From Henriciella litoralis (GTDB lineage: Bacteria > Pseudomonadota > Alphaproteobacteria > Caulobacterales > Hyphomonadaceae): a stretch of DNA of 64,000 bases. The stretch lies in contig NZ_NCSS01000006.1 in NCBI RefSeq assembly GCF_002088935.1, forward strand, positions 1,954,407-2,018,406. The letters are read 5' to 3'. Position numbers and translations under genes: made by a program. The notes below the pieces were generated by a model. It worked only from the letters and a program-made list of their open reading frames with translations. It did not search any database and was not told the origin of the DNA. Positions 12,380-14,280 of this stretch are shown here, one piece after another; position 1 is the stretch's first letter, and every line of letters begins with the position of its first letter.

Positions 12380-12554
12380 TTGTATCTCCCTGTTGCGGCG
12401 CAACATATCGCGGGGAGAGGCGGGGTCAATCGATGGGCCGACTGGTTCGAAAAATTGTCAAAGCAAACTGACTTACCTAGTCGCATCATTGGCAGCTGGC
12501 GTCATAAATGTTGAATAGCAACCCAACTGCTTGAGAAGCAATATCGGCAAACGC

Positions 12555-13577
12555 TTAGTCATCGATCGCTAAAGACAGCTCCAAGGTATCGCCTGGTTTC
12601 TTATACGCTCGGTTCAGCATCGCTTTAAACTGATCCCATGAGTCTGATGCTCGCATGAGCGCGGTCACACCTTCTATGTGCTTTTGCAAGTCCGGATGCC
12701 CACTTTCTTTCGTGAACCATTGATGGTGCTTTGAAGCTCTTCTGCCTGGCGCGACAGTAGGATTTCGTTTGCGAAGCTCATCCGTCAAGCCTGGAGCAAG
12801 CCGATCATACACCAGATCGTTTGTCCAATGTGCAACTACCTGTGGCTTTTTCGTGGTCCACGGCTTGAACTCCCAGCCGCGCAAACGGAAAATTTCCTTA
12901 TAAAAATCGAGCGGAAATGTTTGCGTCCATTTTTGACGTTCTTCTGTCAGGTACTGTTGAAAAATTTTTGCTAGAGCGTCCTTAGCACGAACGTCTTGAT
13001 AACCAGTGGCTTCATCGACAAGTGCAATGATGCCCACTTTAGCCAAACTGCGCATGATTGCGTCAGCAGCTTTTACCATGCTTTCGTAGCGCTCAGGGAT
13101 GGAGCCTGTCTCCGCCAAATGAAAGTCTCGAAAGCGCAAATAAACCTCTGCGGTCAGAGGAAGCAGCTGAGCATTATACCCAACACCTTTGCCACCGTGC
13201 ATCGTTCGATAGAAAACCGGAGTTGTTGCGGCCATCAGCTCGCTGTCGATAAACGGAGCAAACGCGGAAGAACTTAAAAAGAATGGCAGTTCATCAGCAG
13301 TCGCCAGAACCCCAGTACCTGCTTTTGGAGAGCGTGAACGCCCCAACGATCTCAAAAACGTTGCCTGCGTAATGACCCGAGTACCATCGCCAACGATGGC
13401 GCATGAGATTTGTCCATCTCCAAGCGGAATACTTCCTTCGAGGATTGCTTCGGGCAAATGCTTGGCCCAGCGATTCTCAGCGGCCTTCTTGGCAATTTCA
13501 CTTCTACGCTTCGCGCTTAGCTTCGACGATCTGGCGTTAGCTGCTGCAACTTTCTTGGGGTTTTTCTTATCAGGCAT
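12555..13577 (-). CDS. P63C domain-containing protein
   Basis: 340 residues from the ATG at 13577, the better start because AAAGGA lies seven bases before it (a second ATG at 13583 is too close). A Lys/Ala-rich basic N-terminus (KKVAAANARSSKLSAKRRSE) could touch nucleic acid. The rest fits the phage-named P63C family, including YLTEERQKWTQTFPLDFYKE, FRLRGWEF and WTNDLVYDRLAPGLTDELRKRNP. The family has no proven function and is common in phages and islands. G+C is visibly lower than in neighbours, and two dyad repeats lie directly upstream. No integrase is adjacent. Confidence 0.82.
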   Translation of the reverse strand: MPDKKNPKKVAAANARSSKLSAKRRSEIAKKAAENRWAKHLPEAILEGSIPLGDGQISCAIVGDGTRVITQATFLRSLGRSRSPKAGTGVLATADELPFFLSSSAFAPFIDSELMAATTPVFYRTMHGGKGVGYNAQLLPLTAEVYLRFRDFHLAETGSIPERYESMVKAADAIMRSLAKVGIIALVDEATGYQDVRAKDALAKIFQQYLTEERQKWTQTFPLDFYKEIFRLRGWEFKPWTTKKPQVVAHWTNDLVYDRLAPGLTDELRKRNPTVAPGRRASKHHQWFTKESGHPDLQKHIEGVTALMRASDSWDQFKAMLNRAYKKPGDTLELSLAIDD

Positions 13578-13592
13578 GCGCATATCCTTTCA

Positions 13593-13658
13593 GCATTATG
13601 CTTGCATACCTTATCTGCAAGCATAATGCAAATGCTTGCATGGAGCACGTGCAAGCAT
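13593..13658. promoter_or_regulatory. Two tandem operator-like dyads upstream of the P63C gene
   Basis: Dyad 1 is a perfect 14-bp inverted repeat GCATTATGCTTGCA (13593-13606) / TGCAAGCATAATGC (13616-13629). Dyad 2 is ATGCTTGCA (13632-13640) / TGCAAGCAT (13650-13658). Both have exactly 9-base spacers and the same half-site ATGCTTGCA, with centres 34 bases apart. On the minus strand a TTGCAT-N17-TATGCA promoter-like pair falls within them. This looks like a two-site operator for a dimeric regulator. Confidence 0.7.
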
Positions 13659-13660
13659 AA

Positions 13661-13684
13661 CGCTTTCCGCTATTGCGGAAAGCG
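13661..13684. terminator. Perfect hairpin between the P63C region and the 13711 lipoprotein gene
   Basis: CGCTTTCCGC-TATT-GCGGAAAGCG, a 10-bp perfect stem with a 4-base loop, 26 bases past the stop of the minus-strand lipoprotein gene. No T tract follows, so it may be a weak terminator or part of the upstream control region of the P63C gene. Confidence 0.5.
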
Positions 13685-13710
13685 CACCGATAGAAGCGGA
13701 TGAAACTTTG

Positions 13711-14280
13711 TTAGCGCGTAAAACTGTAATGATGGCGGCGGAAGGCTTGGTCGTCGCCCTCCAGCGTCACCATCATGCGGATGGAGAAGGCGCTGGGTGA
13801 AATATCGTAAGTGTATTCGCAGCTCGCCTGCACACCATTGTCCTCGCAAGGCGCCAGCGTCACCACCATCAGGCTGCCATCCTCTTCGATGCGCCGTGTG
13901 ACGGTTTCCTGGTTGATCATGCGGCCATTGTCGGAAATCGTGATGTCCGCGCCGCCATCGGCCTCAGGGTCTTCCGGGAAGGTAAAATACAGCCCGAAGG
14001 TCCGCTCGGTCTGCAGCACCATCAGCTCGACCGGGATCGTGCTCTCGGTCTCGCCGTCACCATAGTCGAGATAGGTCAGCGTGCCCTTCCAGTCCGTCCC
14101 GACAATCGGCTTCAGATCGTCGGGGGTTATCGTCGGCCCATCGGCCGGCGCAGGCACATAGGCCGAAGCCTCTTTTTTGGCCTCAATCGTTGACGCGTCT
14201 TCTTTCGGGGCGGGCTTGTCGGCCTGACCGCACGCAGAAAGGATAAGGCCTGCGCACAGGCAAAGAGTGGCTAAACGCAT
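13711..14280 (-). CDS. Hypothetical lipoprotein
   Basis: 189 residues with a lipoprotein signal (lipobox LSAC at about residue 17), then a charged linker (KPAPKEDASTIEAKKEASAY). Residues 50-189 look like a beta-sandwich or lipocalin-like domain: DWKGTLTYLDYGDGE, MINQETVTRRIEEDGSL, and repeated strands ending in FRRHHYSFTR. It should be anchored to a membrane facing the periplasm. No family recognised. Confidence 0.75.
   Translation of the reverse strand: MRLATLCLCAGLILSACGQADKPAPKEDASTIEAKKEASAYVPAPADGPTITPDDLKPIVGTDWKGTLTYLDYGDGETESTIPVELMVLQTERTFGLYFTFPEDPEADGGADITISDNGRMINQETVTRRIEEDGSLMVVTLAPCEDNGVQASCEYTYDISPSAFSIRMMVTLEGDDQAFRRHHYSFTR

Follow-up and report, generated by a model that had tools for sequence, protein, structure and literature searches.

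Phage and plasmid repressors of the lambda CI/Cro type have tandem inverted repeats lying over the promoter from which the regulator itself is expressed. Proteins carrying the P63C domain occur widely in phages, in satellites and on plasmids, yet they have no known function: the PF10546 and PHROG 2384 families are annotated without one, and a search for reports of an operator, or of a peptide acting as its binder, turned up nothing for either. Likewise, we found nothing on P63C function and no description of the operator or the peptide considered below in the open-licence literature, although such a search does not prove absence. The namesake of the domain, p63 of Myxococcus phage Mx8, was recovered as a structure match to the protein studied here in a viral library (E 2e-9). 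In the window (the whole 64-kb stretch of DNA that was analysed), the start of a P63C-domain gene is preceded by four copies of the half-site ATGCTTGCA. Judged from sequence comparisons, this array is probably the operator of a self-regulating P63C protein, whose N-terminal peptide would bind the half-sites and probably repress its own gene.

The array consists of two inverted pairs, with a spacer of 9 nt in both dyads and 34 bp from the start of dyad 1 to the start of dyad 2 (Table 1). This arrangement, as well as the perfect pairing of the first dyad over 14 bp, had been described in the initial annotation and was recovered unchanged on re-measurement; the distance to the ribosome site, given there as 3 bases, is 2 bases when measured from the end of the 14-bp arm. 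All four occurrences of ATGCTTGCA in the window belong to the array, compared with 0.94 expected from shuffled sequences, of which 1 in 100 reached four. Across the 3.78-Mb genome, the exact pattern TGCTTGCA-N9-TGCAAGCA is confined to these two dyads, the next best match having 2 mismatches, and the genome-wide check that had been proposed for the dyads thus returned zero unrelated exact copies. Relaxing the spacing to 0–30 added one more exact TGCTTGC/GCAAGCA pair. A perfect 10-bp hairpin, CGCTTTCCGC-AATA-GCGGAAAGCG (13661–13684), adjoins dyad 2, beyond the stop codon of the next gene on the minus strand; no T run follows this hairpin.

Table 1. Features of the P63C locus, in positions of the 64-kb window
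Feature	Position	Strand	Basis or remark
Half-site ATGCTTGCA, dyad 1 arm 1	13598..13606	+	Within perfect 14-bp arm 13593–13606
Half-site ATGCTTGCA, dyad 1 arm 2	13616..13624	-	Within perfect 14-bp arm 13616–13629
Half-site ATGCTTGCA, dyad 2 arm 1	13632..13640	+	9-bp arm
Half-site ATGCTTGCA, dyad 2 arm 2	13650..13658	-	9-bp arm
Promoter-like TTGCAT-N17-TATGCA in array	13603..13631	-	-35 13631..13626, -10 13608..13603; read from sequence, weak
Ribosome site AAAGGA	13585..13590	-	7 nt 5' of ATG 13577; read from sequence
Gene for the 340-aa P63C-domain protein, the proposed operator binder	12555..13577	-	PF10546, PHROG 2384
N-terminal peptide codons, residues 7–37	13467..13559	-	Half-site association; predicted helices 7–18, 22–37
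P63C domain codons, residues 205–297	12687..12965	-	PF10546 match
Inserted segment with gene and operator	12433..13712		Approximate borders; genus comparison, lower G+C

The P63C gene more likely starts at ATG 13577 than at ATG 13583. The initial annotation also noted that the array overlaps a promoter-like sequence, which can indeed be read in the letters, its putative -10 overlapping the innermost half-site and its -35 sitting between the dyads; it is nevertheless a weak candidate, since a consensus scanner did not list TTGCAT-N17-TATGCA.

Membership of the protein in the P63C family is clear, the PF10546 match covering all 93 positions at 108.1 bits (curated cut-off 26.1, E 3.6e-31) and the PHROG 2384 match spanning the whole protein length. 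An AlphaFold2 model places two helices at residues 7–18 and 22–37 (block pLDDT 76–89), followed by a beta-containing domain and then by a C-terminal part that is helical, with uncertain relative placement of the domains (pTM 0.56). The N-terminal peptide is basic, and this head, when predicted alone, adopts the same two-helix hairpin. It has no convincing match in Pfam or the PDB, 30 residues being too short for such an absence to mean much, and Foldseek against the PDB returned nothing significant for either the head alone or the whole model, a result that does not show a new fold. The HIF1A bHLH model was matched by 1 of 17 head peptides (alignment A2) at E 0.0075, a lone weak match that is probably due to chance. 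The middle domain is weakly similar to BRO-N/KilA-N (Z at most 6.2), and BRO proteins appear among the viral matches with E above 0.001. Residues 208–298, in the C-terminal part, match the anti-repressor Ant profile PHROG 2899 (E 1.3e-11). The defence-system library gave no match.

Half-sites are also present in upstream regions of other P63C genes, whose comparison had been suggested in the initial annotation, even before divergent homologues. As sole query, the P63C protein recovered zero relatives from the viral collection and one from the genome collection; an alignment query returned at least 80 loci. In an enlarged set of 131 non-redundant P63C proteins (<80% identity), sampled with conserved P63C words and with start codons picked by a simple rule, we scored the peptide KGGxARAxxLSxExRSEIAxxAAxxRW near the N-terminus. 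TGCTTGC was present within 120 bp upstream of the start in 67 of the 96 genes encoding the peptide versus 0 of the 35 genes without it (Fisher p 1.7e-14); in the first set of 89 proteins, the corresponding counts were 55/68 and 0/21. Absence of the peptide is not an artefact of start choice because the whole open frame back to the preceding stop was judged, although a frameshift could still mask one. For the same 96 loci, TGCTTGC was found 2 times downstream and 0 times within the gene, and shuffled upstream regions gave a mean of 7.65 and a maximum of 17, against the 67 observed. Unprompted, the commonest 7-mer upstream of the peptide-bearing genes is GCAAGCA; the peptide-less group has no comparable word. 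By coordinates, exact half-site pairs (gap 0–28) were located in 23 of 32 P63C-bearing records, all just 5' of the P63C start, while a reversed control pattern gave 4 matches in all across these records. This is the pattern expected of an autoregulatory operator: the sites recur at the promoter of the gene for the putative regulator, while the controls are near zero.

These sites occur in several bacterial phyla, upstream of P63C genes in phages, in bacterial genomes and on plasmids of Caballeronia, Paraburkholderia, Deinococcus, Roseomonas, Acinetobacter and Methylorubrum, some of the plasmids being as small as 5.8–8.5 kb. Among relatives, the half-site occurs in 2 to 6 copies, with variable spacing and orientation that include direct and divergent arrangements and wide gaps. 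The two-dyad layout, which the initial annotation likened to a cooperative two-site operator, recurs, with 28 bp between copies compared with 34 in the window, and in many relatives one of the half-sites extends over the ribosome site or start codon.

When the search was reversed and started from the dyad (spacers 8–11), 62 loci comprising 607 kb were retrieved from the viral collection. A peptide-bearing P63C-type gene lay directly downstream at 10 of the 62. The 3 tandem-dyad loci all belong to these 10, and each peptide-bearing gene of the P63C type found in the 607 kb adjoins a dyad. By comparison, a composition-matched palindrome control yielded 20 loci and 0 with such a gene. Ten more of the 62 dyad loci form one clpS-bearing lineage (L131, L137, L149, L151, L156, L165, L178, L180, L184 and L186), in which a TGCTTGCA-N8-11-TGCAAGCA dyad precedes clpS by ~20 bp and no P63C gene accompanies it. 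The remaining loci probably reflect chance.

Shared ancestry does not appear to account for the association. A maximum-likelihood tree built from the P63C proteins minus the peptide requires at least 17 switches between presence and absence of the peptide. As for INDEPENDENCE from ancestry, of 10 independent well-supported pairs an average of 8.9 show the half-sites changing in the same way as the peptide and 0 in the opposite way; the corresponding median sign-test p for joint change of peptide and half-site (~0.004, 10 independent contrasts) is approximate, because the tree was quick, the model simple and some long branches were flagged. Within the peptide, 65 of the 67 genes with TGCTTGC have I or V at residue 28 (the I of RSEIA), compared with 16 of the 29 without it (p 1.2e-6); the other 13 of these 29 have S, Q, R or A there. 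Certain peptide variants are accompanied by repeated words of their own, albeit not always in independent genes, since some are tree neighbours. RKESS and a repeated TGCACGT occur in the same three genes and in no other of the 131, all three being phage P63C genes (L018, L107 and L210). RKEQA goes with TTGCAAAT, also present in three other genes, and RKERA with TTAGCAT, also present in one other gene; KARL..RSEVA goes with TGCTATC and RSAAA with TGCGTGC. As read from these comparisons, the sites both depend on and covary with the proposed DNA-binding part of the protein, as would be anticipated for an autoregulatory operator.

The setting of the window copy bears on whether the repeats might instead be the termini of a small mobile unit, as the initial annotation had offered in the alternative, or the recombination sites of such a unit with the P63C gene as its cargo. 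The segment is an insertion relative to same-genus genomes: ~1.3 kb separates two conserved genes in the window, in place of 59–65 bp in two genomes of the genus, a single gene is inserted, that gene is absent from all 28 other genomes of the genus, and the G+C content is ~0.47–0.52 against 0.57–0.62 in most flanking blocks. However, all four half-sites are at one end, no half-site is present at the far end, no inverted repeat pairs both ends of the insert, and the phage and plasmid sites likewise lie at the promoter only, so that we regard this explanation as extremely improbable. DNA relatives of the inserted segment were not found among plasmids. It is also highly improbable that the repeats act at the RNA level by forming a hairpin or attenuator within the 5' leader. 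The array does fold stably as RNA (-38.3 kcal/mol, z -4.4), which is expected of any perfect inverted repeat, but the ATGCTTGCA letters are kept in relatives while spacing and orientation vary, the opposite of a conserved stem, and with a promoter-like sequence inside the array most of it would be untranscribed.

Two further explanations accept the half-sites as protein-binding sites. In one, a separately encoded regulator, of the host or of the element, binds them and the P63C protein is merely the regulated product; the sites are placed where any repressor could act, and yet a single foreign regulator shared by several phyla and by plasmids of 5.8–8.5 kb is hard to envisage, and it is on the peptide of the P63C protein itself that site presence depends, peptide variants going together with site variants. 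We consider such a regulator quite unlikely. In the other, which we judge unlikely, the P63C protein does bind its own sites but activates, or serves replication, partition or DNA looping. The frequency of P63C genes on small plasmids and phages, and the 2 to 6 half-site copies, reminiscent of iterated sites, would suit such a use; against it, the sites sit around the promoter and ribosome site of the gene and are rare in the rest of the element, and the window copy is a lone chromosomal insertion with zero replicon genes. Self-binding by the head likewise has observations against it: TGCTTGC is missing from 29 of the 96 peptide-bearing genes, about half of which have another repeated word and the remainder nothing clear, and from 6 of the 51 genes with the full consensus peptide; the variable spacing and orientation of the half-sites are unusual for a rigid dimer; and the middle domain resembles BRO-N/KilA-N folds, themselves able to bind DNA.

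Taken together, at the level of sequence, the half-site is conserved at P63C promoters, dependent on the peptide, covarying with it and scarce elsewhere in the same genomes. From this we infer direct binding by the peptide, the arrangement of the subunits and the sign of regulation. The initial annotation had suggested the P63C protein, on account of its basic N-terminus, as a possible binder, and this gains strong support from the comparisons, as site presence tracks the peptide rather than the remainder of the protein, and site variants track peptide variants. We read the ~30-residue head as probably an undescribed DNA-binding module serving self-control of the gene, because relatives carry the half-sites only when their protein has the head. 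According to the self-binding model, the basic, predicted two-helix hairpin would bind the ATGCTTGCA half-sites, and the central BRO-N-like and P63C parts would probably join subunits and contact partners, such that one oligomer may occupy two or more half-sites; the loose spacing in relatives fits heads on flexible linkers. As the array overlies the promoter-like sequence and extends as far as the ribosome site, binding would most likely repress transcription of the protein's own gene. Repression is likelier than activation because the putative -10 overlaps a half-site, the putative -35 sits between the dyads and half-sites of relatives overlap the ribosome site or start codon; regulation is accordingly probably negative, a claim weaker than that of direct binding.

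The motif is not restricted to P63C proteins. Small proteins (MPKGPKGEKRPADVIGNAVKV...) bear KGGxARA..RSEIAKKAA..RW at the C-terminus and have no P63C domain. Dyads of the form ATGCTT/A..AGCA, often ATGCTTAGCGCAAAGCA, occur within 400 bp upstream of 11 of 28 motif-only genes and downstream of 0 of 28, a pattern formulated after some of the same sequences had been viewed. Motif-only loci with ATGCTTAGCGCAAAGCAT-like upstream dyads include L352, L366, L367, L370, L371, L375, L377, L006 and others, and a second common word, AAACTGAGACACTAC, is found upstream of ~10 of 19 genes for motif-only small proteins (L366–L384). The genome of the window itself encodes a second protein with the motif, fused to a further domain (G000:C6:757608-757694, L365), with TTTTATGCTTATAAGTCAA ~110 bp upstream of its start. 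On balance, we favour the view that KGGxARAxxLSxExRSEIAxxAAxxRW could be a compact, previously undescribed domain that binds DNA with a readable specificity code, in which changes at or around residue 28 go with TGCTTGC, TGCACGT, TGCGTGC, TTAGCAT, TGCTATC and others; it would be common to P63C and the small stand-alone proteins, the latter with ATGCTTAGCGCAAAGCAT-like sites of their own, and be gained and lost along with its operators. If the peptide is indeed a self-sufficient domain with a simple code, a small DNA-binding module would become recognisable in many unannotated proteins. For the P63C family, the prediction of an autoregulated DNA-binding protein provides a first functional handle, and a predicted peptide, its cognate site and natural variants of both permit direct tests with short peptides and synthetic DNA.

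With regard to described systems, the P63C protein resembles the Ant, Rha, BRO-N and KilA-N antirepressors in the Ant profile at its C-terminus, which suggests a protein partner, and in its weakly BRO-N/KilA-N-like middle, but unlike these it adds an N-terminal peptide with sites of its own. It differs from repressors of the lambda CI/Cro type in that its head has no convincing match to a known DNA-binding domain and also occurs on small unrelated proteins, and in that the spacing of its half-sites is loose; it shares with them the placement of tandem dyads over its own, putative, promoter.
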